This document shows, piece after piece, positions 11,651-54,683 of a DNA stretch of 64,000 bases. A program made the translations under genes and the position numbers. The notes beneath the pieces were generated by a model, which worked only from the letters and a program-made list of their open reading frames with translations, did no database searches and was not told where the DNA came from. Position 1 is the first letter of the stretch. Each line of letters opens with the position of its first letter. Origin of the DNA: Microcoleus sp. AS-A8 (GTDB lineage: Bacteria > Cyanobacteriota > Cyanobacteriia > Cyanobacteriales > Coleofasciculaceae); assembly GCA_039962225.1 (NCBI GenBank), contig JAMPKV010000009.1, forward strand, positions 186,001 to 250,000, given 5' to 3'.

Positions 11651-12820
11651 ATGGGAAATCGCGAAATGATTGACCATGATCGACTATTTAAGGAATTACT
11701 ATCGACGTTTTTTAGTGAATTTATCGAGCTGTTTTTGCCAGATGTAGCTGATTATATGGAAAGAGAGTCGATTTCTTTCTTAAATCAGGAAATCTTCACG
11801 AATATTACGTCTGGAGAGCGTCGGGAAGTCGATTTACTGGCACAAGTGCGGTTTCGGGGTCAAGAGACTTGCTTTTTAATTCATGTCGAAAATCAATCCT
11901 ATTCCCAAGCTGGATTTGAGCGGCGGATGTTTCATTACTTTGCTCGTTTAGACGAGAAGTATAGCTTGCCGATTTATCCAGTAGTTATTTTTTCTTTTGA
12001 TACTCCACAACGACTGGAACCTAATCGCTATCAAGTTGAGTTCCCTGACCGGAAGGTGTTGGATTTTAGTTATGTAGCGATTCAGCTCAATCGTCTGAAT
12101 TGGCGAGATTTTCTCTCTTCACCCAATCCTGTAGCGGCGGCGTTGATGGCGAAGATGAAAATTCACCCAGAAGATAGACCCAAGGTGAAAGCAGAATGTT
12201 TGCGCTTGCTGACTACGTTACGTTTAGACTCCGCAAGAATGCAGTTAATTTCGGGGTTTGTTGATACTTACTTGCGGTTGAATGAAGCTGAGGAAGTCGC
12301 CTTTGAAGCTGAACTAGATAAAATGGGGTTATCTGAGGAGGAAGAGGCGCGAGTGATGGAAATTGTTACCAGTTGGATGGAGAAGGGAATTCAACGGGGA
12401 TTACAGCAGGGCTTACAACAGGGATTTCAGCAAGGATTTCAGCAGGCATTAGCAAGAGAATCGGCTTTAGTTTTGTACCAGCTCAAGGAGCGTTTTCCAG
12501 GAATTCCCCAATCTCTAGAGGAGGAAATCCGCAGGTTGTCAATTGTGGAAATCGAGTTATTAGGTGAGACGTTATTTAAGTTAGCTAGTGAAACGGCTTT
12601 GAGGAGTTGGTTATATGAAAGGGGACTGCGACGGGGAGTTGAAAAAATTGTATTGAGCCAAATCAATCGCCGTTTTGGAACTGTTTCTCTTGATGTAGAA
12701 AAGCAGATTCGCCGTTTACCAATTGAACGGGTGGAAGAGTTGGCAGAGAGGTTGTTTGATTTTGAAGAAGAAGAGGCGATGATAAATTGGTTGAATGAGA
12801 TTAGCGGTCAATCAGTTTGA
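11651..12820 (+). CDS. Rpn-like PD-(D/E)XK nuclease with two DUF4351 repeats
   Basis: A 389-residue protein. The N-terminal half has the Rpn/transposase_31-like nuclease core: DHDRLFKELL, catalytic-type Asp in RREVDLLAQV and Glu-x-Gln in FLIHVENQSY, as in PD-(D/E)XK enzymes called recombination-promoting nucleases. A linker of near-perfect QQG repeats follows (GLQQGLQQGFQQGFQQ, encoded around 12400-12450). The C-terminal part holds two DUF4351 units (about 280-325 and 340-387). Such genes are abundant in large cyanobacterial genomes and often lie near mobile or defence genes. ATG 11651 and ATG 11666 (MIDHDRLFKELL) are both possible starts. Cellular role not established. Confidence 0.85.
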   Translation: MGNREMIDHDRLFKELLSTFFSEFIELFLPDVADYMERESISFLNQEIFTNITSGERREVDLLAQVRFRGQETCFLIHVENQSYSQAGFERRMFHYFARLDEKYSLPIYPVVIFSFDTPQRLEPNRYQVEFPDRKVLDFSYVAIQLNRLNWRDFLSSPNPVAAALMAKMKIHPEDRPKVKAECLRLLTTLRLDSARMQLISGFVDTYLRLNEAEEVAFEAELDKMGLSEEEEARVMEIVTSWMEKGIQRGLQQGLQQGFQQGFQQALARESALVLYQLKERFPGIPQSLEEEIRRLSIVEIELLGETLFKLASETALRSWLYERGLRRGVEKIVLSQINRRFGTVSLDVEKQIRRLPIERVEELAERLFDFEEEEAMINWLNEISGQSV

Positions 12821-12912: not shown

Positions 12913-14571
12913 TTACAACACTGGCGGAAGTCCTACATCCCTTGGATTAACAAATTTGCCATTAAATCCCACAGCTTTACCTTCAATCGTTCTTACTTCA
13001 GCTAACTCTCGGCGCAGTTCCGCACGCTCCATGTCATCCTCAGTACCAGCGATGATGTAGACTAACAACCTCGCTGCTAAATCCCTACCGGAAACTAATA
13101 CCCGTTTTTTATTCGGGTCATACAAAACGCCGTACCAGAGAGACTGCGGATTTTCCATGCCACTAAATCCATCGTCCACATCGTACTTTTGGAGTTTTTT
13201 GAAAACTTCTTTGAGAGATAATCCCTTTTGGAATATTACAATTCCCAGTGCCTGAGCAAAGGCAACTTGACCCACTGGACGGAATAAAATATTGCCTTCA
13301 CCTCCATTCTTTTCAAAGCTGAACCGACGCAGTTGAGGCGTTTCTTCCCCGGCTTCTAGTCTTTGATAGCTGGGTAGAGTGGCTAAATGGTTGAAGAGTT
13401 GGGTAAATGCTTCGATTCCCTCTTCAAGTTCCTCATCCTCAGGGCGCATGGGAATTAAACCTTTCTTTTCGGCAGGTTTCCAGTGAGGGAATTTGTGTTC
13501 CAAATACCGTTCAGACATTTCATCGAGCGCTTGCAGGGTAGTCAAGACGGTTGACTTAGTTGCAACGGTGGCACTATCCCAATTGACGCGAGGATTTCGA
13601 CCTGCCACTTCTTTTAAGAGAGGATGGCTGACGGCAATTTTTCGGGCAACGATGGAAAATCCATCATTCTCATTGAGTAGGGCAAGCTGTCCTTTGCTTA
13701 ACCGTAACGCCATGAGGTTGACATGGACAAAGATGGAACGGACTCGCCGCAGTGCTTCTTCACGGGTTTCCCCTTTGCCAACTACTGGAATGAATTCAAT
13801 GCCAATCTTTTCGTGGGCTAAACTTTGCAGGTAAGCGGGGTCTAATTGATATTCCTCGATGAGGTCGTCACTGGTAATGATGCTGCCTACAGGCTTTTTA
13901 TATTTGTTGTAGCGCTGGAGTCTACCTGTTTTGAGCAATGTCATCAAACCTTGGACTCCCATCAGTCGGTGCTGACCGTCTAGGGCGAAGATTGAGACGT
14001 TCTCTGAAACATCCAAAAGTCCAACGGTTTCGTTTTTGTCCAAGGGCGTGAAATCGGCAGCAGATTTGAGTGCGCGTCCATTTTTATCCCATTCAGGCGC
14101 TTTGGGGTTATCTACCCAGGCGGGACTGTGAACGACTAAGACGGCGGGAAACTTATGCGCTTTCCGTGCGGCTAAATACTGGGTGAGAGATGCTTGACGT
14201 GACCAATCTAAGGGTCGTTGGAGAATTTCATCGATGGTTTCTTCATCTCTGACAACGTTGTCGGTTTGGGGGTCGAATTTTTGCCGGAAAAGGGGCAGTT
14301 GAGAGGCGAAGCGAACGCGACTGTCAAGCCATTCTAAGGTGACGGCACCGATAAAGGCTTCGGTTGCACCCATTTGGGTTTTCTGAACGATGAGTTGGTC
14401 GTTGCGGGCGAGATGTCTGTCCAGCAGGAGTGCCAGCGCCTGTCTCTCCTGGTTTTCTCGTTCCAGAATTTGGCTGGCGATGTCAGCCGTTGGGTTGTTG
14501 GCGCTGTTCATGGGTTTTATAGGAAGTTTAGCTGGTTTTAAAAAACTACCAATCAGGTATTTTGATGTCAA
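12913..14571 (-). CDS. DGQHR-domain protein (DndB-related)
   Basis: A 552-residue protein containing the DGQHR signature (residues 198-202, FALDGQHRLMG) that defines the DndB/DGQHR superfamily. The flanking text VNLMALRLSKGQLALLNENDG corresponds to the conserved second block of the family. DndB proteins bind upstream of dnd genes and repress them; other DGQHR proteins sit in mobile and defence islands with unknown roles. It is transcribed divergently from dndB with 427 nt between them that hold REP and palindromic repeats. An internal ATG (residue 21, position 14511) is an alternative start. It is longer than DndB (374 residues here) and clearly a distinct paralogue. Function in phosphorothioation is inferred from family and position only. 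Confidence 0.82.
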   Translation of the reverse strand: MTSKYLIGSFLKPAKLPIKPMNSANNPTADIASQILERENQERQALALLLDRHLARNDQLIVQKTQMGATEAFIGAVTLEWLDSRVRFASQLPLFRQKFDPQTDNVVRDEETIDEILQRPLDWSRQASLTQYLAARKAHKFPAVLVVHSPAWVDNPKAPEWDKNGRALKSAADFTPLDKNETVGLLDVSENVSIFALDGQHRLMGVQGLMTLLKTGRLQRYNKYKKPVGSIITSDDLIEEYQLDPAYLQSLAHEKIGIEFIPVVGKGETREEALRRVRSIFVHVNLMALRLSKGQLALLNENDGFSIVARKIAVSHPLLKEVAGRNPRVNWDSATVATKSTVLTTLQALDEMSERYLEHKFPHWKPAEKKGLIPMRPEDEELEEGIEAFTQLFNHLATLPSYQRLEAGEETPQLRRFSFEKNGGEGNILFRPVGQVAFAQALGIVIFQKGLSLKEVFKKLQKYDVDDGFSGMENPQSLWYGVLYDPNKKRVLVSGRDLAARLLVYIIAGTEDDMERAELRRELAEVRTIEGKAVGFNGKFVNPRDVGLPPVL

Positions 14572-14998: not shown

Positions 14999-16123
14999 AT
15001 GCCTATCCCCTCCTTCGAGTACGTTTTGCCCGTCATCCGAGGGATTCAAGCAGGGCGCGAATATTACGTCTCTATGTGTCCAGCGCGGTATATCCCGAAG
15101 CTGTTCGCTGGCAATGACGAAGAAGTGCTGCCGGAAATGAGGGCGCGGCGCACGTCGAACAAGACTCGCGTTCCGGAAATTGCGCGATATATTCTGAACA
15201 ATCCAAGGAACTATACTTTCTCGGCAATTACGGCATCGATTGATGCGGATATTACTTTTGAGCCGATTGGTACGGAGGCGGAGGCGCGGAAAATTGGACG
15301 GTTGAGGGTGCCGATGGATGCACGATTTGCGATTCATGATGGGGAACACCGACGGGCGGCGTTTGAGTTGGCGTTGCAAGAGAAGCCAGAATTGGGGTAT
15401 GAGACGATCTGCGCTTCGCAGCAGCGCTTCGCTATCGCACTTATTCTGTTTTTGGATATTGGGTTAAAGCGATCGCAACAGATGTGTCTGGATTTAAACC
15501 GCAATTCAGTTCCTCTCGATCCATCGCTGACAATTCTTTATGACCACCGGGACGAGAAGGCGAGTTTAGTTAGGGCGGTGATTAAGGAGGTTCCGGTGTT
15601 TCGGACGCTGACGGATATGGAACGCAGTACTCTGCCAAGCCGTTCGGGTAAGTTATTTACGCTCAGCAGCATCTATAATGCTACCCTTGCCCTGCTTGCT
15701 AATGGTCAGAATGCTGAAGTGAATGAGCAGATTGAACTTGCTGCTGGATACTGGAATGCGGTGACGCGCTATATCCCTGATTGGGATATGGTTTTACAGA
15801 AAAAAATAGCTGCAAGCGAGATGCGCCGGGATTATGTGCATTGTCATGCGATCGCGCTTTTAGGATTAGGCAGGGTGGGTGCGAGTCTCATCTCGATTTA
15901 TCCAGAAGGTTGGGATGAGTATTTGGGAGGACTGGCAGGAATTGATTGGTCGCGTTCTAATCCGGATTGGCAAGGGCGAATTATGTCTAAAGGTGGGATT
16001 TCTCAGTCTCAAACGAGTGTGAGTCGGATGACGGCTTACATTAAGAGGTATCTGGGTTTGCCGCTTACCCTGGAAGAGGAACGCTTGGAAAATACCCTTG
16101 TTGAAGCAGGAAGGGAGACATGA
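14999..16123 (+). CDS. dndB: DNA phosphorothioation regulator DndB
   Basis: A 374-residue DndB-family protein. The N-terminus (YVLPVIRGIQAGREYYVSMCP) and the DGEHR motif at 114-118 (AIHDGEHRRAA) are characteristic, as is the block LDLNRNSVPLDPSLTILYDHRD. DndB is not part of the sulfur-transfer machinery; in Streptomyces and enterobacteria it acts as a DNA-binding regulator that limits dnd expression and modification density. ATG 14999 follows GGCAGGG. The stop overlaps the next start as ATGA, so dndB, the HNH gene and dndC form one translationally coupled operon. Odd feature: about 11 residues (ICASQQRFAIA, near 137-147) are encoded by a small palindromic repeat inserted in frame. Confidence 0.92.
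   Translation: MPIPSFEYVLPVIRGIQAGREYYVSMCPARYIPKLFAGNDEEVLPEMRARRTSNKTRVPEIARYILNNPRNYTFSAITASIDADITFEPIGTEAEARKIGRLRVPMDARFAIHDGEHRRAAFELALQEKPELGYETICASQQRFAIALILFLDIGLKRSQQMCLDLNRNSVPLDPSLTILYDHRDEKASLVRAVIKEVPVFRTLTDMERSTLPSRSGKLFTLSSIYNATLALLANGQNAEVNEQIELAAGYWNAVTRYIPDWDMVLQKKIAASEMRRDYVHCHAIALLGLGRVGASLISIYPEGWDEYLGGLAGIDWSRSNPDWQGRIMSKGGISQSQTSVSRMTAYIKRYLGLPLTLEEERLENTLVEAGRET
15409..15441. repeat. small dispersed repeat inserted in frame inside dndB
   Basis: CTGCGCTTCGCAG followed by CAGCGCTTCGCTATCGC is a short GCTTCGC-type palindromic repeat. It lies in the dndB frame between the coding sequence for LGYETI and that for ILFLDIGL, which are normally almost adjacent in the family as I remember it. 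Confidence 0.5.
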
Positions 16124-17169
16124 GTACAGGACAACAGCCAGAAAACCAGCAAGATTTAGCATACTACCGTCAGCGTTTTTGGGAGCTTAATGTAAATAGA
16201 ACTGAAGAGGGAGAGGCTCTCTACCAACCGATACTGCTCTTATCTGTAATTGATCTAATTGCACAAGGTGTAATAGAAGATAATAATTATATTCCTATCA
16301 CAGAGGAATTAAGAACTACATTCAACAAGTATAGAGCTATCTTAATTGTTGATCAAAATATTAAGGGTGCTAAAAAATCAAAAAGTAGTTTATCTCTGCC
16401 ATTTTTTCATTTGCAAAATGAAGAGCATCAATTTTGGCATCTTGACTACAAACCTGAATACCATCGTAGTGTCAAAATAAATAAGAAAAAAACCAATGAC
16501 GACATAAGAAAATCAATTACGCAACTCAAAAAATATGTGAACCACGCCTTTATAGAGGAGGATTTGTTTAATTTAATAAAAGATGAAAAGTCAAGAGAGG
16601 AATTAGTTGATACGCTTGTAACAAGATGGTTTTCTTCAAGTGAAGATAAAATAGAAAATCTTTTGAAAGCCAATCAATCTTTTCATGATTCTATACAGAA
16701 GGAAATAAAAAAATTAAGTAACGTTGGACGCAGTGAAAAAGTGCAAAAATTTTATTTCAGTAAAGCAGCAGCTAGAGAGGCAGTTTTTGGTAAAGCAGTT
16801 GTAGGAATTTATGATTACAAATGTGCTTTCTGTAGATTGAAAGTGACCAATTCTCTGAAGCAAAATATTGTAGATGGCGCACATATTGAACCATTTGCAA
16901 TATCATTTAATAATCAAATAAATAATGGAATATCCCTCTGTAAAAATCATCATTGGGCTTTTGACAAAGGCTGGTTTAGCATAACCAATAATTACAAAAT
17001 TATTGTTGCTAACGACTTGCAGGAAGAATCGCCCCATACGCGAGAAATGCAAGAGTTTAACGGTGAAAAGATTCTCTTGCCAGATTCAATAAAATACGCT
17101 CCCGATCAATATTATCCAAGCGACAACTCACTCGAATGGCACCGTAAAAAATGGGGGTTTCAAACATGA
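16120..17169 (+). CDS. HNH endonuclease with SBD-like N-terminus, dnd operon
   Basis: A 349-residue protein. The C-terminal HNH nuclease has CxxC (Cys235, Cys238), His255 in DGAHIEP, Asn269 in NNGISLC and His277-His278 in NHHWAFDKG, the HNH_2 pattern of restriction-type enzymes. The N-terminal ~115 residues (LYQPILLLSVIDLIAQG ... LPFFHLQNEEHQFWHL) resemble the sulfur-binding domain of ScoMcrA-type enzymes, which read phosphorothioate DNA; this match is from memory of the pattern. A helical linker joins them. Start overlaps the dndB stop and stop overlaps the dndC start (both ATGA), so dosage is tied to the modification enzymes. The gene is visibly more AT-rich than its neighbours, suggesting separate acquisition. 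Likely a phosphorothioate-sensing nuclease. Confidence 0.85.
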   Translation: MSTGQQPENQQDLAYYRQRFWELNVNRTEEGEALYQPILLLSVIDLIAQGVIEDNNYIPITEELRTTFNKYRAILIVDQNIKGAKKSKSSLSLPFFHLQNEEHQFWHLDYKPEYHRSVKINKKKTNDDIRKSITQLKKYVNHAFIEEDLFNLIKDEKSREELVDTLVTRWFSSSEDKIENLLKANQSFHDSIQKEIKKLSNVGRSEKVQKFYFSKAAAREAVFGKAVVGIYDYKCAFCRLKVTNSLKQNIVDGAHIEPFAISFNNQINNGISLCKNHHWAFDKGWFSITNNYKIIVANDLQEESPHTREMQEFNGEKILLPDSIKYAPDQYYPSDNSLEWHRKKWGFQT

Positions 17170-18782
17170 CAGAAATGCAGACATCACTATTTCCACCACG
17201 CACTGTTGCCGAGTTAGTAGAAGATATACAAAAGCTAACTGAAGAAATCCAAGAGTTATATAGTCAAGACGAAACACCAATCGTTATTGGCTGGAGTGGC
17301 GGAAAAGATAGTACCTGTGTTCTACAACTTGTATGGAATGCGATCGCAGCCCTGCCACCAGAGAAACGAACTAAAAAAATTTACGTTATCACGACAGACA
17401 CGCTGGTAGAAAATCCGATTGTCTCTGCTTGGGTACGCAAATCTCTAGAGCGGATGAAAGCTGCTGCCCAAGATCAAGGACTACCCATAGAACCCCATCT
17501 ACTCTCTCCCGCAGTCAAAGACACATTCTGGGTTTGCTTAATGGGCAAAGGCTATCCAGCACCTAGAAATCGTTTCAGGTGGTGTACTGAACGCCTAAAA
17601 ATTAAGCCTGCTGACTCTTTCATTCGTGAAGTAATCAGAACTAAAGGTGAAGTGATTCTTGCCTTGGGTACTCGGAAGGATGAAAGCATTAAACGGGCTG
17701 CAACAATGGCTAAACATAGACAGGGGCGAGTGCGAGATCGCCTGAACCCTAACCCTAGCCGACCTTGCTCCCTGATTTACGTTCCTATTGAAGACTGGCG
17801 TACTGATGAAGTCTGGATTTACTTGAATCAGTGGAAAAACCCTTGGGGAAACAGTAACAAAGACTTATTCACCATGTATCGAGGTGCGACAGCAGATAAT
17901 GAATGCCCCTTAGTGGTAGATACTTCTACCCCTAGCTGTGGCAGTTCTCGTTTTGGTTGTTGGGTTTGCACGATGGTTGATAAGGATAAATCGATGGAGG
18001 CGATGATCCAAAATGATGACGAGAAGGAATGGATGCAGCCTTTACTCGATATCCGCAATGAATTAGATGTTGAGGACGATCGCCCTAAGAGAGACTTCCG
18101 CCGCATCTATGGTAAAGTCGAACTTTTTGAGCGCAATGTTGACGGTGAAATGTCAGTTGAACCAGTTCCCGGCCCCTATACTAAATACTGGCGGGAACAT
18201 TGGTTAAGGCGAGTCTTAGAAGCACAAACCCAAGTTCGCCGCACCGCACCCCCAGAAATGCGCGATATCACCCTCATTACCCATGAAGAACTGAGTGAAA
18301 TTCGCCGCATCTGGTTAGAAGAAAAGCACGAGTTCGACGACAGCTTACCCCGCATTTACGAAGAAGTCACAGGCGAACCCTTCCAAGACACTCGTCCCAG
18401 TGCAGAACGGAGACTACTCGGCAGTGACGAGTGGACAGTGTTAAATGAAATCTGTGAGGATGAAATGCACCTAGAACTCATGGCGAGACTGCTAGACACA
18501 GAAAACCAGTATCACGCAAAATCCCGGCGCGGTGTCTACGACAGCCTGGAGAAATGCTTTGCCAGCAGTTCTCGTTCTAAGGATGAAGCAATTGAGAATG
18601 CCCACTATCAAAGAAATTTGAAAAATACCGTCAAAGCTCTAAAAGATGATACGGCTGAAATTCACGAGGTTAGACAACTGTTCGAGCAAAGCGATCGCGA
18701 CGAAGCAAAGCAGCTTAATTTAAATTGGGCAAGCTTGAAATTCTCAAGCAAAAACTCAGATGAGGAAAATTCGGACGATTAG
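17166..18782 (+). CDS. dndC: DNA phosphorothioation sulfurtransferase DndC
   Basis: A 538-residue member of the PAPS-reductase-like ATP pyrophosphatase family. It activates the DNA backbone with ATP and carries an Fe-S cluster for sulfur transfer within the DndCDE complex. The PP-loop SGGKDST is at residues 44-50, followed by the family blocks RNRFRWCTERLKIKP, LGTRKDES and the Cys-rich segment CGSSRFGCWVCTMV that supplies cluster ligands. ATG 17166 overlaps the HNH gene stop; an in-frame GTG lies 15 nt upstream. In other genomes dndD follows directly. Here the operon is broken after dndC by a REP-RAYT-REP segment. Full family length; no defect seen. Confidence 0.96.
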   Translation: MTEMQTSLFPPRTVAELVEDIQKLTEEIQELYSQDETPIVIGWSGGKDSTCVLQLVWNAIAALPPEKRTKKIYVITTDTLVENPIVSAWVRKSLERMKAAAQDQGLPIEPHLLSPAVKDTFWVCLMGKGYPAPRNRFRWCTERLKIKPADSFIREVIRTKGEVILALGTRKDESIKRAATMAKHRQGRVRDRLNPNPSRPCSLIYVPIEDWRTDEVWIYLNQWKNPWGNSNKDLFTMYRGATADNECPLVVDTSTPSCGSSRFGCWVCTMVDKDKSMEAMIQNDDEKEWMQPLLDIRNELDVEDDRPKRDFRRIYGKVELFERNVDGEMSVEPVPGPYTKYWREHWLRRVLEAQTQVRRTAPPEMRDITLITHEELSEIRRIWLEEKHEFDDSLPRIYEEVTGEPFQDTRPSAERRLLGSDEWTVLNEICEDEMHLELMARLLDTENQYHAKSRRGVYDSLEKCFASSSRSKDEAIENAHYQRNLKNTVKALKDDTAEIHEVRQLFEQSDRDEAKQLNLNWASLKFSSKNSDEENSDD

Positions 18783-18989: not shown

Positions 18990-19433
18990 TCAGCTAGGGT
19001 GCCAACGTTTTGGAGAATCATCTTGATTCGTCGCCTGTTCCAAAGACGCGATCGCAGTTCCATTTAAATGATGTGCTTTCTGATTCTTCACAGAATCAAC
19101 CGCTTGCTCCAGTTGCTTGCCTCCCAGCGAAAATACACCATATCCCTCCTGCCAACCAAATTTATTTAAAGAAGCTGACAAAGCCTGATTTAGATGATGA
19201 GCGCTGCTTCCTTTAATCTTTTTGGTAAAATCAGCTATTGCTAGCTTTGGGGGAATAGAAACTACCAAATGAATATGATCTTCAACACCACCAATCGCAT
19301 GAACAATACAACGAATATCATCAGCTTTAGCAATAATATAACGGTAAAGCTCATCCTCTCTATCAGAATTAATCAGAGGCTGACGCTCTTTCGTCGCCCA
19401 GACAAGATGATAGTAAAGTCGCCAAAGAGCCAT
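18990..19433 (-). CDS. REP-associated tyrosine transposase (RAYT), probably inactive
   Basis: A 147-residue Y1_Tnp/IS200-like protein: MALWRLYYHLVWATKERQPL, the HUH metal motif in EDHIHLVVSIPP, KIKGSSAHHLN and GWQEGYGVFSLG. RAYTs are domesticated single-strand transposases that recognise REP palindromes. The REP pairs on both sides (18826-18947 and 19547-19667) fit this assignment. In cyanobacterial relatives the catalytic tyrosine sits in a YVxxQKxHH block. Here the block reads DSVKNQKAHH, with Ser (TCT at 19092-19094) where Tyr is expected, one base away from TAT. If that alignment holds, strand cleavage is lost although the HUH site remains. The gene runs against the dnd operon and separates dndC from dndD. 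Confidence 0.88.
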   Translation of the reverse strand: MALWRLYYHLVWATKERQPLINSDREDELYRYIIAKADDIRCIVHAIGGVEDHIHLVVSIPPKLAIADFTKKIKGSSAHHLNQALSASLNKFGWQEGYGVFSLGGKQLEQAVDSVKNQKAHHLNGTAIASLEQATNQDDSPKRWHPS

Positions 19434-19828: not shown

Positions 19829-21814
19829 GTGATATTTCTTGAACTCGTCCTGCAAAATTTTGGCCCATACCTTGGCAAACAAGTTATCAATCTCCGTCCA
19901 GAAATTGATGACGCCACTCGCCCAATTATCCTGTTTGGCGGCATGAATGGCGGCGGTAAAACAACGCTTATGGATGCCATTCGCCTCGCTCTCTATGGTT
20001 CTCGCGCCCAATGTTCCACACGCGGCAATTTAAGCTATCCCGACTTCCTTACTCAGTCTGTCAACCGCAATACGCCACCCACAGAAAAAGCCCGAATTGA
20101 ATTAGCCTTTGAAGTCATCCAAGACGATAGACCTACTACCTTAAGAGTGGTCAGATATTGGACAGCAGACCCCAAAGATGGCAAAGACACATTAGGTGTC
20201 CTCATTGATGAAGAATGGCCTGATAAAGCCCTAGCGAATACCTGGGACGAGTATATTGAAAACTTACTCCCGTTAGGGATTTCCAACCTATTTCTCTTCG
20301 ACGGTGAACAAGTCAAAGAACTTGCCGAACTCGAAACACCACCCCCCATTGTCGTTGGAGCCATTCAATCCCTATTAGGCTTAGAACTAGCAGAACGCCT
20401 ATCAACAGACTTAGATATTCTAGTCAGCCGCAAGCGCAGGGAAATCGCCAGCGCCAAAGACATCGCAACTTTAGAAGAAATTGAACAAAAACTGCATCAA
20501 CAAAAAGACGAATTAGAAGCTGAAACGCAAGAATTATCTGGTCTTAATGCCGAATTACAACGAGCAGAAGAAAAACAGCACTTAGCCCAAGAAAAGTTCA
20601 TCTATGAAGGCGGTAAAATTGCTAGCGATCGCAACCTACTCCAAAGCCAATACAAAGACCTAACCGCAGAGGCAGACGACACCCGTCAGGCAATGAGAGA
20701 ATTAGCGGCGGGTGCCTTACCATTAACCCTAATTTCACCCCTGCTTACTCAAGCTCAATCCCAAGCCGAAACAGAAAGCCGTATTACTCAGCGGCAGATG
20801 GCACAGGATGTCTTAAAAGAGCGCGCTCAACGCCTATTGGATTATATTACCCAATTAAAATTAAATGCCAAACACCTAGAAAGAATTAAAACATTCCTAG
20901 AGGGAGAAAATCAAGAACTCGAACAAGAAATTGCCGCGAACAAAGAACCCTGGTTACTAGCTGATAGCGAGGCTTTAACTCAACTAGAGAATCTCATTAA
21001 ACATGACCTAAAATACAGCCAATATAAAGCCACTAAAAAACAGGAAAATCTCAAAGAACTCGAAACCGAAATTGATTTCTTAGACCGACAAATTGCTACT
21101 GCTGCATCGCCCGAAGCTTACGAACAGTTGAAAAATGCCGTTAAAGAGGCACAAAACGAAGTCGCAAAAGCCAAAGCCGCCCATGAAAGCGTAAATCGCC
21201 GCTGTGAGGAATTAAAACGTGCGATCGCAAAAACTAAACAAGACTTAGAAGCCTATGCAGAGGACAATATCAAACTGAGAAATAATCAACATATTATCAC
21301 CTCTGCCGCCAAGGTCCAAGCTACACTCAAACTCTTTAAAGAGCGATTAACCCTCAAAAAACTGAATAAATTAGAAATAGAAGTAACAGAGTGTTTCCGC
21401 TATCTCCTGCACAAATCTGACTTAGTACATCGGGTTGCCATTGATACGAGTAGCTTTAGCCTTTCCCTGTACGACCTCTCTGGACAACTCGTTCCCAAAC
21501 ATCGCCTTTCAGCAGGGGAAAAGCAGCTACTTGCGATCGCATTTCTCTGGGGACTCGCCCGCGTCTCCGGACGCCACCTCCCGATCGCGATCGACACACC
21601 CCTCGGACGCCTCGACTCCTCCCACCGCACCAACCTGATTGATCGCTACTTTCCCGCCGCCTCCCATCAGGTGATTCTCCTGTCCACCGACACCGAAATC
21701 GGCAAAACCGAAGTCGAACGCCTGAGAGAAGCAGACGCGATCGCACGGGAGTATCTCTTGAAATACGACCCCACCAAGCGCCAAACCAGCGCCCAGTTGG
21801 GTTACTTTTGGTAA
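19829..21814 (+). CDS. dndD: DNA phosphorothioation ATPase DndD (SMC/Rad50-like)
   Basis: A 661-residue SMC-like ATPase. Walker A lies near residues 36-46 (FGGMNGGGKTTLMD). Long coiled-coil arms (about 195-560) follow, then the ABC signature LSAGEKQLLAIAF and Walker B LPIAIDTPLGRLD near the C-terminus. DndD hydrolyses ATP and is thought to open or nick DNA for sulfur insertion with DndC and DndE. The start is GTG at 19829, preceded by only weak purines, so expression may be low. Normally dndD follows dndC and precedes dndE. Here it is isolated behind the RAYT insertion, and dndE is found 32 kb away on the other strand. The frame is intact. Confidence 0.94.
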   Translation: MIFLELVLQNFGPYLGKQVINLRPEIDDATRPIILFGGMNGGGKTTLMDAIRLALYGSRAQCSTRGNLSYPDFLTQSVNRNTPPTEKARIELAFEVIQDDRPTTLRVVRYWTADPKDGKDTLGVLIDEEWPDKALANTWDEYIENLLPLGISNLFLFDGEQVKELAELETPPPIVVGAIQSLLGLELAERLSTDLDILVSRKRREIASAKDIATLEEIEQKLHQQKDELEAETQELSGLNAELQRAEEKQHLAQEKFIYEGGKIASDRNLLQSQYKDLTAEADDTRQAMRELAAGALPLTLISPLLTQAQSQAETESRITQRQMAQDVLKERAQRLLDYITQLKLNAKHLERIKTFLEGENQELEQEIAANKEPWLLADSEALTQLENLIKHDLKYSQYKATKKQENLKELETEIDFLDRQIATAASPEAYEQLKNAVKEAQNEVAKAKAAHESVNRRCEELKRAIAKTKQDLEAYAEDNIKLRNNQHIITSAAKVQATLKLFKERLTLKKLNKLEIEVTECFRYLLHKSDLVHRVAIDTSSFSLSLYDLSGQLVPKHRLSAGEKQLLAIAFLWGLARVSGRHLPIAIDTPLGRLDSSHRTNLIDRYFPAASHQVILLSTDTEIGKTEVERLREADAIAREYLLKYDPTKRQTSAQLGYFW

Positions 21815-51586: not shown

Positions 51587-53125
51587 TCAACTCTTATGAC
51601 GATTCCGGGCAGACATTAGGAGTTTAACTCGATAAGGGTCAGCATCTTTACGCCAATAGACACGATGTCCCTTAATTTCAGCACAATGTGCTTTCAAACA
51701 TTTTTGCCAACCTTTGCGCGTACCAATGGTGCTCGTTTCCTCCAGTAATCCCCACTTTTCTTCCTGTTGGGTGAGTTTGGCAAACTTCTCATAATCAGGA
51801 TAATCCGGCATCACAAAAGTTTCTTTGCGGTGCAGGATTGGCGGATTTTCTGAAGTGTCGTAATCGCGGTAAACCACTTGCAAATCCCGCAAGTCAATCT
51901 GCATACTTGTGTGCAAAGTAGGATGGGGTTCTGTATCAAAGTTGGGATAAAACAGATAAGAAATTTTCGGTACATTAAAGTGGAACTTAACGAGAGTCGC
52001 GCCATCCATACGACCAATGGTGCGACTGGCGCATCCTTCGTAAACTCGCAACAGGGGATTTAGGGCTTCTAGTGCCGAAACGTGAACGTAAAGAGCCTTA
52101 GGTAACAGTTTACCGATCGCACTTTGTTTGCAGCAATTCGCCATCAGGCGCAAGTTTCCCACACTCACTAGCATCAAGTCAGCCGCTGCACAGGCTTGCT
52201 TGTAGTTGCCAAAAAGTCCTTTAATGTCGTTTTGTAAGACACTTTCCAGGTTGCCAAATTTGGGGCGATGGCTAAACTGTGTTAGCGCCAAGTAAACCAG
52301 GATGTCATGGCGGCGTTTTTCGGAAATCGCATCCCATTCGCCTTGGTCGGTGGCTTGTAAAATGACTTGAAAGGCACGGCGCAGGGTGCCAAATTCAGCC
52401 AGAATATCGGGAACGCTGGCGAGTTCGGTGGCAGTGGGGAGGCGTCCACGTTCCGTGACGAAGCCCATTAAGGGGGCGAGGAGTTCTTGGTAGTCCTCAA
52501 ATCGCTTAATGTTGGCGCGAATTCTGGGAGTCGTGGTGCGGGAACGAAAACGCGATGCCCGAAAGCTTTCCGCTTGAGCTTCATCCCGGAAGACAAAGTA
52601 AATCCCCAAGGCTACGGGAATGGCATTGACGCTGAGTACTTGGTCAATATAGACTTTGAGTTCTTCTTGTTCGTAATATTTCTGAAACGTATTGCGCCGC
52701 GTGACAATGCCGTCACCGTAGGCAATTTGACCGGATGCGCGGTCATCAATTAAGACTTGGGCGGCAACAATCAGAACTTTTCGGGTCAATTCCCATGCTC
52801 TGAGCAAGGCATCCCGGCGTTCGGCGGGGTCTTCGATCACATTGATCACATAGCCGAGATTAACGATATCGGCGGGGATGAGGGGATTGTCCCGCTGGTA
52901 GTAAGGGTCCCAACCCGCACTGGTATAGCCTTGGTTCTGCGTGCGATGAATATCGCCGCCGTGACCGCAGCCGTAGTCAAAGAAGGAGGTATCTTTGGTT
53001 AAGATTGCGCTTTCTATGGCCAATCGCACGGGTTTGGAGAGGTCAGTCCGGGTGATCGCAGCTCTGTGACGCTCAATTTCAGGGGCTTCTGGGATTGGAG
53101 CAACCATAACACCAAGCAAAAGCAT
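51587..53125 (-). CDS. DNA phosphorothioation-associated methyltransferase
   Basis: A 512-residue protein matching the family found beside dnd genes in many bacteria. The signature start (RHRAAITRTDLSKPVRLAIES), motif I FDYGCGHGGDIHRTQNQGYTSAGWDPYY and the text LGYVINVIEDPAERRDALLRAWEL are close to what I remember for it. It is presumed to methylate DNA or RNA in or near phosphorothioated sites, but no target is proven. ATG 53125 is used; an in-frame ATG at 53107 would shorten it by 6 residues. It is placed 32 kb from dndBCD, and a pentapeptide gene on the opposite strand separates it from dndE. Confidence 0.88.
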   Translation of the reverse strand: MLLLGVMVAPIPEAPEIERHRAAITRTDLSKPVRLAIESAILTKDTSFFDYGCGHGGDIHRTQNQGYTSAGWDPYYQRDNPLIPADIVNLGYVINVIEDPAERRDALLRAWELTRKVLIVAAQVLIDDRASGQIAYGDGIVTRRNTFQKYYEQEELKVYIDQVLSVNAIPVALGIYFVFRDEAQAESFRASRFRSRTTTPRIRANIKRFEDYQELLAPLMGFVTERGRLPTATELASVPDILAEFGTLRRAFQVILQATDQGEWDAISEKRRHDILVYLALTQFSHRPKFGNLESVLQNDIKGLFGNYKQACAAADLMLVSVGNLRLMANCCKQSAIGKLLPKALYVHVSALEALNPLLRVYEGCASRTIGRMDGATLVKFHFNVPKISYLFYPNFDTEPHPTLHTSMQIDLRDLQVVYRDYDTSENPPILHRKETFVMPDYPDYEKFAKLTQQEEKWGLLEETSTIGTRKGWQKCLKAHCAEIKGHRVYWRKDADPYRVKLLMSARNRHKS

Positions 53126-54290: not shown

Positions 54291-54683
54291 TCAGCTTTGA
54301 AACGGCAAGGCAATAGCAATTAAGTCTTCAATTTTCTTAATATTAGGGTCGCCCGCTAAGTAACCAATACCGCGATGCAGATGAAGGCGAAATTGAGTAG
54401 CCAGAGTTTCTTTGTCCAGAGGAAAACCATCATTATGACAGCGTTGTTTGAGGGCGATGAGGAGAATATCGGACATTTCGCCACCGAACACTCGCCACGA
54501 CATTTCAACATTACTATCTGTAATAATCGGTACTGGAGAAGGGATGGTGGGTTCGGCAAGAGAACGACAGAACGCCCAACGGCAGAGAATGTTCCATTGG
54601 TCGATTTTGGTCAGGCGCTTGAGTTTGGTGAGTTGGTCTTTAGCGGATTGAGAGAGTTTGATACGATCAATTGGGGGTTCCAT
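54291..54683 (-). CDS. dndE: DNA phosphorothioation protein DndE
   Basis: A 130-residue DndE: MEPPIDRIKLSQSAKDQLTKL, WNILCRWAFCRSLAEPTIP, ITDSNVEMSWRVFGGE, LKQRCHNDG and FRLHLHRGIGYLAGDP are the conserved blocks. DndE forms a tetrameric, mostly helical protein that binds nicked DNA and works with DndC and DndD in sulfur insertion. It has normal family length and is intact. In most genomes it closes the dndBCDE operon; here it is on the other strand about 32 kb from dndD, so it must be expressed from its own promoter in the 54684-54849 gap. Confidence 0.93.
   Translation of the reverse strand: MEPPIDRIKLSQSAKDQLTKLKRLTKIDQWNILCRWAFCRSLAEPTIPSPVPIITDSNVEMSWRVFGGEMSDILLIALKQRCHNDGFPLDKETLATQFRLHLHRGIGYLAGDPNIKKIEDLIAIALPFQS

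Follow-up and report, generated by a model that had tools for sequence, protein, structure and literature searches.

A two-domain SBD-HNH nuclease gene beside dndC in cyanobacteria, a candidate exchangeable effector of the Dnd phosphorothioation system

INTRODUCTION

Restriction enzymes that join a sulfur-binding domain (SBD) to an HNH nuclease domain, including EcoWI and Mae9806I, are described as cutting beside phosphorothioate (PT) within a sequence context (PMC7461809). The same source places SBD-HNH genes near dnd in fewer than 3.6% of cases and argues that such enzymes should not co-occur with a dnd system of the same specificity. Proteins combining wHTH(SBD), SAD, and HNH domains are reported from the Dnd locus of 698 taxa and proposed as restriction components, with suicide action raised as an option (PMC10853773). 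DndI is a PT-sensing HNH effector of another family, and DndFGH, DndI, and SspE are described as using PT to avoid self-damage (PMC11662687). As for cyanobacteria, PMC8569181 reports that the Nostocales are enriched in dnd and lack dndFGH, so another effector would be wanted there, while a type III-like enzyme of the PT system is described upstream of dndBCDE in Microcoleus (PMC8546630).

Here, we describe an SBD-HNH nuclease gene lying between dndB and dndC in a 64,000-nucleotide stretch of Microcoleus sp. AS-A8 DNA (contig JAMPKV010000009.1; the window), together with its relatives. Our literature search found no paper on this cyanobacterial gene, which may already be listed in the supplementary dataset of PMC10853773. 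Its dnd-linked placement in many cyanobacteria suggests that the nuclease is the cutting arm of the Dnd system, raising the puzzle of why a PT-reading nuclease spares its own PT-marked host. A preliminary description of this DNA had framed that puzzle as a paradox of self-attack, a type IV enzyme set against the host's own modified DNA, and the present results support the paradox as a real one.

RESULTS

A nuclease gene between dndB and dndC

Profile matches located the PT writer genes dndB, dndC, dndD, and dndE in the window, and the features around the nuclease are as follows.

12913-14571 (-): divergent DGQHR/DndB-like gene; TIGR03187, 179.2 bits
14999-16123 (+): dndB; TIGR03233, 426.5 bits (cut-off 328)
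16120-16123 (+): ATGA overlap of the nuclease start with the dndB stop, read from the sequence
16120-17169 (+): SBD-HNH nuclease gene, 349 amino acids; open reading frame, near full-length NF045808 match below the cut-off, AlphaFold2 and Foldseek
17166-17169 (+): ATGA overlap of the nuclease end with the dndC start, read from the sequence
17166-18782 (+): dndC; TIGR03183, 703.1 bits (cut-off 290.4)
19829-21814 (+): dndD; TIGR03185, 691.2 bits, above the curated cut-off
54291-54683 (-): dndE, ∼32 kb from dndD; TIGR03184, 138.8 bits

Both ATGA overlaps had been claimed in the preliminary description and were borne out, and the coupling of the nuclease to the modification genes that it had proposed is supported by the open reading frame, the overlaps, and the dndB, dndC, and dndD profile matches. 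The gene is also AT-rich relative to its neighbors, as had been stated, with a GC content of 33.7% against 50.2% in dndB and 45.9% in dndC (46.6% over the whole window). A further ATG upstream, at 17151, shares the reading frame of the dndC start ATG at 17166.

An IS200/IS605-type transposase gene (18990-19433, -) lies between dndC and dndD, and both dnd genes are unbroken. Near dndE lies a gene for a putative phosphorothioation-associated methyltransferase (51587-53125, -; TIGR04096, 745.9 bits), and the two make up a second dnd-related cluster ∼30 kb from dndD. A short tandem repeat with a 24-bp unit was observed at 12384-12451, within a DUF4351/Rpn-like gene (11651-12820).

Predicted sulfur-binding and HNH domains of the nuclease

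The following parts of the gene were assigned to domains and pocket sites.

16153-16677 (+): SBD, residues 12-186; phmmer match to 8h0l, E 2.7e-9, and Foldseek match to 8h0l_B, E 8.6e-7, target TM 0.84
16222-16230 (+): Tyr35-Gln36-Pro37, aligned with ScoMcrA H116-R117-P118 in the profile alignment to 5zmo
16396-16401 (+): Leu93-Pro94, aligned with ScoMcrA Y164-P165, the floor of the sulfur pocket, in the same alignment
16822-16983 (+): HNH_2 nuclease domain, residues 235-288; PF13391, E 8.2e-11

The phmmer match joins the N-terminal half of the protein to SBDHga1 in 8h0l, a structure of SBDHga with phosphorothioate DNA, and a 41-row family profile found the 8h0l chain at 2.6e-29 and the ScoMcrA SBD (5zmo) at 0.0011. 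The AlphaFold2 model, built with 61 alignment rows, had a mean pLDDT of 84.2 and a pTM of 0.84. Its top Foldseek matches in the PDB were both chains of 8h0l, the second at E 9.6e-7 and target TM 0.83, followed by TagI and VcaM4I, and full-length ScoMcrA matched weakly (E 0.17, probability 0.87). At the sequence level, the TagI match was restricted to residues 213-297, the HNH region. Sequence, profile, and predicted fold thus support the SBD-like N terminus of the preliminary description, and the structure prediction that it had proposed as a check left the SBD assignment standing.

Sulfur is contacted by H116, R117, Y164, P165, and A168 in ScoMcrA (PMC6224610) and by Y31, Q32, Y78, P79, and A82 in SprMcrA (PMC7470945); by the profile alignment to 5zmo, the corresponding residues in the window protein are Y35, Q36, L93, P94, and H97, the first pair being that of SprMcrA. 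The substitution R117Q is reported to weaken binding by ScoMcrA (PMC6224610), and SprMcrA is reported to bind with a native Gln at that site (PMC7470945). The lid Tyr (ScoMcrA Y164, SprMcrA Y78), described as poorly conserved across the SBD family (PMC6224610), is replaced by Leu93. Y35, Q36, and P94 follow the pocket pattern of the family (H or Y, then R, K, or Q, plus the pocket Pro). Among 107 intact relatives (defined below), position 35 was Y, H, or N and position 36 was K or Q without exception, and Pro94 was kept in 105, one Ala and one gap being the exceptions. The loop aligning close to the base-reading one varied among the 19 relatives listed.

The HNH core proved complete, as the preliminary description had said: in addition to the PF13391 match, the residues that we take to be catalytic were conserved, with H255 in 106 and N269 and H278 in all 107 of the intact relatives. 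NF045808 ("phosphorothioated DNA-binding restriction endonuclease") matched residues 17-344 with an E value of 4.6e-28 and 98.1 bits, below its cut-off of 180; five scanned relatives reached 119 to 145.5 bits, likewise below the cut-off, the window copy scoring lowest of the six proteins. The Pfam scan gave no match to an SRA domain and, at E values up to 1, none to a DUF262/DGQHR NTPase of the SspE/DndI kind or to DUF1524. Membership in the SspE/DndI group was rejected on these domain results, and in a protein with no match to the DUF262/DGQHR NTPase domain the SspE mechanism as such is unlikely to apply. The preliminary description had offered SspE-like action, as a PT-stimulated nickase directed at phage, next to inhibition by the density of host modification. 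Judging from the residues and the modeled fold, the nuclease would read PT through the SBD and cut through the HNH domain.

A clade of SBD-HNH genes linked to dndC

To describe the distribution of the gene, 388 genomes of the host's order, including its own, were searched, and SBD-HNH matches were obtained in 136. From 113 of these genomes, 120 loci were fetched, giving 121 copies with the window; left out were 22 matched genomes whose matches were weak and HNH-only or were gene remnants (e.g., G247, G284, G331, G333, and G371), along with two further copies in G207. Copies of at least 285 amino acids were counted as intact (107) and shorter ones as interrupted (14). The FastTree phylogeny of the 107 intact sequences was split into a linked clade of 81 and a free (sister) clade of 26, with a support of 0.70 for the split, or of 0.999 on a long branch once L145, which has an intact dndC, joins the linked side. 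Eleven interrupted copies were placed in the linked clade by best match, and the clade occurs, with its 81 intact copies, in 92 of the 388 genomes.

All 78 intact linked-clade copies that could be judged had an intact, same-strand dndC no more than 3.3 kb away, in contrast to 2 of 26 free-clade copies with an intact dndC nearby (L139 and L145; Fisher p 1.4e-21). The three linked-clade copies set aside were L081, at a contig end without dndC, and L037 and L040, whose dndC runs off the contig; four of the 78 were first flagged for stops, which lay at the last residues of the match. Three intact free-clade nucleases (L114, L130, and L141) stood beside a partial dndC, an arrangement seen in none of the 78.

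Among 261 relatives from GTDB species genomes, a set partly overlapping the 388, the best 80 were all cyanobacterial (Nostoc, Microcoleus, Planktothrix, Microcystis, Okeania, Pseudanabaena, and others), the nearest named one being from Coleofasciculus sp. LEGE 07092, with 73% over the best segment. Of these 80, 75 had dndC on their own strand at no more than 4.5 kb (36 adjacent to it and 39 nonadjacent), and 5 were without it. In three of the five (L170, L193, and L211), the sequence ends within 1.5 kb downstream of the nuclease, while the other two (L227 and L230), with ∼5 kb of downstream sequence and dndC absent, were nearer the free clade by blastp. Four Pseudanabaena-type copies (L216, L221, L225, and L228) stood beside a matching dndC and were yet nearer the sister clade by blastp. 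Sister-clade relatives from Pseudanabaena and Phormidium tenue can therefore be linked too, and these four loci, together with the tree support, slightly weaken the contrast between the clades.

With dndC above its cut-off in 313 of the 388 genomes, free-clade copies shared their genome with a dndC elsewhere in 19 of 25 cases by hand tally, which is no depletion (p 0.60), and avoidance of dnd by free-clade genomes is unsupported. Loss of the pocket in linked copies, considered as a cause of host tolerance, was rejected, since linked and free copies alike retain these residues. Both clades were found together in six genomes, G223, G233, G265, G272, G382, and G383 (locus pairs L120/L121, L036/L132, L082/L123, L056/L129, L060/L124, and L061/L128), the linked copy being interrupted in G265 and G382. 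In 12 genomes assigned to Microcystis through shared contigs, six SBD-HNH genes were found, all adjacent to dndC. By the usual naming convention, the name Mae9806I would point to Microcystis; if so, that enzyme is possibly a member of the linked clade, given the placement of these six genes. The type III-like enzyme described in Microcoleus (PMC8546630) is, by its name, probably of the dnd-associated restriction family TIGR04095, which scored above its cut-off in 329 of the 388 genomes, among them the window's own, where it lies on another contig.

Two layouts dominated the linked loci: either the nuclease lay immediately upstream of dndC or a divergent DGQHR/DndB-like gene stood between the two, which were then ∼1.8 kb apart. 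A relative of the divergent gene at 12913-14571 of the window was present in 64 of the 80 linked-clade loci where dndC was matched. Only 4 of 54 adjacent intact copies, the window counted, overlapped dndC by ATGA, and the translational tying is thus local, whereas the linkage is general.

Loss, selection, and base composition

Within the linked clade, 11 nucleases were interrupted beside an intact dndC, and no interrupted dndC was found beside the 78 intact nucleases. Given the lengths of the two genes, the chance of all 11 interruptions falling in the nuclease is 3.5e-5, although some interruptions may be sequencing errors. This asymmetry supports, without proving, a dependence of the nuclease on the writer; the writer is perhaps kept for its own sake, as the presence of dndC in so many genomes would allow, and this alone could produce the asymmetry. 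One locus, L108, combined an intact nuclease with a stop within dndD, among 56 loci in which dndD could be evaluated.

Comparison of the window copy with two near relatives gave dN/dS values of 0.27 and 0.30 for the nuclease, 0.12 and 0.16 for dndC, and 0.27 and 0.15 for dndB. Across 52 loci, the Spearman correlation of distances was 0.49 between nuclease and dndC (permuted maximum 0.20) and 0.79 between dndC and dndD; relative to the writer, the nuclease either evolves or is swapped more rapidly.

The nuclease was lower in GC than dndC in all 80 linked-clade loci with a dndC match (means 32% versus 40%) and lower in GC3 in 77 of the 80, while free-clade copies lay on average 1% above the GC of their own loci. 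Low GC is a trait of the linked clade, and recent foreign acquisition is disfavored as its cause by the consistency over 80 loci.

Other nucleases at dndC loci

Twenty dndC-positive loci without SBD-HNH, a nonrandom sample from the top of the dndC list, were compared with the linked loci. One representative per nuclease type was examined with Pfam and PADLOC, and the remaining loci were assigned by tblastn. Nine of the 20 carried one of three other nucleases near dndC. Six had a GIY-YIG-like protein (E 4.6e-4, under the Pfam cut-off) with a 663-amino-acid DndB-like partner just below its cut-off, the pair running opposite in strand to dndC in all six. Another two combined HNH (PF01844) and DpdB-like proteins, and one encoded a GmrSD_N protein, in each case on the dndC strand. 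An example of the first type is as follows.

L233:6339-9023 (opposite to dndC): GIY-YIG-like and 663-amino-acid DndB-like pair, beside dndC

The other 11 loci were without any of these three nucleases, to which the search was limited. By tblastn, none of the three was found in the 91 linked SBD-HNH loci, the window standing outside this test. The exclusion (9/20 versus 0/91; Fisher 3.3e-8) persisted when the three loci that supplied the queries were removed (6/17 versus 0/91; Fisher 6.5e-6), some of the loci compared being cut by contig ends. It counts as support for an exchangeable effector, and the SBD-HNH gene looks like an exchangeable restriction-effector cassette.

Two further proteins were noted at these loci. 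A second DndD/PbeC-like ABC ATPase (e.g., L240:1300-3276) was present at >30% identity in 33 of the 91 linked loci and 10 of the 20 dndC-positive loci without SBD-HNH, and a 156-amino-acid protein without a Pfam match occurred in 44 and 15 of them, respectively.

DISCUSSION

We tentatively favor the explanation that the gene is an exchangeable restriction effector of the cyanobacterial Dnd PT system, in which the mark decides what the enzyme may cut. Judging from their genes, DndB, DndC, DndD, and DndE would write PT marks on the host DNA; the nuclease would recognize these with its SBD and cleave with its HNH domain; PT-DNA of the host may be spared or, by analogy with DndI and SspE, PT may switch the enzyme; and DNA without the right marks would be attacked. 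Such control by the mark would be why the nuclease remains beside the writer. We infer PT binding, host sparing, and a role in defense, and the patterns of linkage, exclusion, and loss suit an enzyme dependent on its writer, being compatible with either sparing or regulated attack. The near-invariant pocket and HNH residues, the low dN/dS of the nuclease, and the clade-wide linkage to dndC count for this explanation, while the only moderate concordance of nuclease and dndC distances, the linkage seen in the sister clade, the dndD stop in L108, and the TIGR04095 match in the same genome count against it. Moreover, the published SBD-HNH enzymes, possibly including a linked-clade member in Mae9806I, cut at PT (PMC7461809), which weighs against simple sparing.

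That PT-directed cutting within a sequence context would also suit a type IV-like enzyme acting on foreign PT-DNA, its SBD reading a context that the host Dnd system does not make. We consider this unlikely, although the coexistence of free-clade nucleases and dndC in the same genomes requires such a mismatch or some restraint, and the loop near the base-reading loop differs among the 19 relatives listed. An enzyme of that kind would have no obvious gain from adjoining a writer, yet all 78 judgeable members of the clade do so, and that three other nucleases are excluded from their loci suggests a common role. If the nuclease were instead released to cut the host's own PT-DNA, for instance when a phage blocks DndB or the writer, so that the infected cell dies, the writer would be needed because PT marks are the targets. 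This would explain the linkage and account both for the cutting behavior of the homologues and for the loss of nucleases with the writer kept. The AT-richness relative to dndC in all 80 linked loci and the overlap with dndB in the window are compatible with low expression, and suicide has been raised as an option (PMC10853773). However, no regulator or trigger was identified, and the use of PT against self-damage by DndFGH, DndI, and SspE (PMC11662687) speaks the other way; such regulated self-attack seems rather improbable. It is very improbable that the gene is a nearly inactive relic carried in the operon: 11 of 92 linked-clade copies are interrupted, and the window copy scores lowest of six proteins on NF045808, but the active-site and pocket residues are almost invariant in the 107 intact relatives and dN/dS lies well below 1.

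The restriction-effector explanation leads to a further, doubtful though possible, proposal of a sign reversal within one enzyme family, from a cutter of PT-DNA to a Dnd-partnered restriction enzyme in which the same sulfur reader marks self. If this is true, the dnd-linked cyanobacterial clade would form a distinct type of PT restriction-modification system, and the effector position would be shared by SBD-HNH, GIY-YIG plus DndB-like, HNH plus DpdB-like, and GmrSD-like cassettes. The locus offers a concrete candidate effector for cyanobacterial Dnd, with dndC in 313 of 388 genomes and dndFGH reported absent from the Nostocales (PMC8569181). It also bears on the expectation in PMC7461809 that SBD-HNH and dnd of the same specificity do not co-occur. 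Furthermore, the two clades, the linked one always beside the writer in the judgeable cases and the sister one mostly apart from it, form a natural contrast for asking how a nuclease that reads sulfur coexists with that mark.

Among described systems, SprMcrA, EcoWI, and Mae9806I share with the window protein the two-domain SBD-HNH form, the Tyr-Gln pocket (SprMcrA), and complete HNH residues (PMC7461809, PMC7470945), but their type is reported as rarely near dnd (<3.6%), whereas all judgeable intact copies of the cyanobacterial clade are beside dndC. ScoMcrA (SBD-SRA-HNH) likewise has an SBD with the pocket proline; the window protein differs in its unmatched SRA and in its Tyr-Gln in place of His-Arg. 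The ScoMcrA host is described as without dnd (PMC7461809), while that of the window has dndB, dndC, dndD, and dndE and so is not the PT-free host of a type IV enzyme. DndI and SspE (DUF262-DUF1524) are similar as single HNH-bearing effectors coupled to a PT writer, but in the window nuclease DUF262 is unmatched, the SBD is the predicted PT reader, and the HNH family is PF13391. The wHTH(SBD)-SAD(SRA)-HNH proteins of PMC10853773 also bring HNH and SBD into a Dnd modification locus; they are described as three-domain proteins, typically encoded immediately downstream, in contrast to a window protein without a Pfam SRA match and to linked-clade genes placed between dndB and dndC or upstream of dndC. 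Thus, Dnd-linked SBD-carrying HNH nucleases are known in a three-domain form (PMC10853773), and what is new here is a two-domain counterpart that is conserved in cyanobacteria next to dndC.
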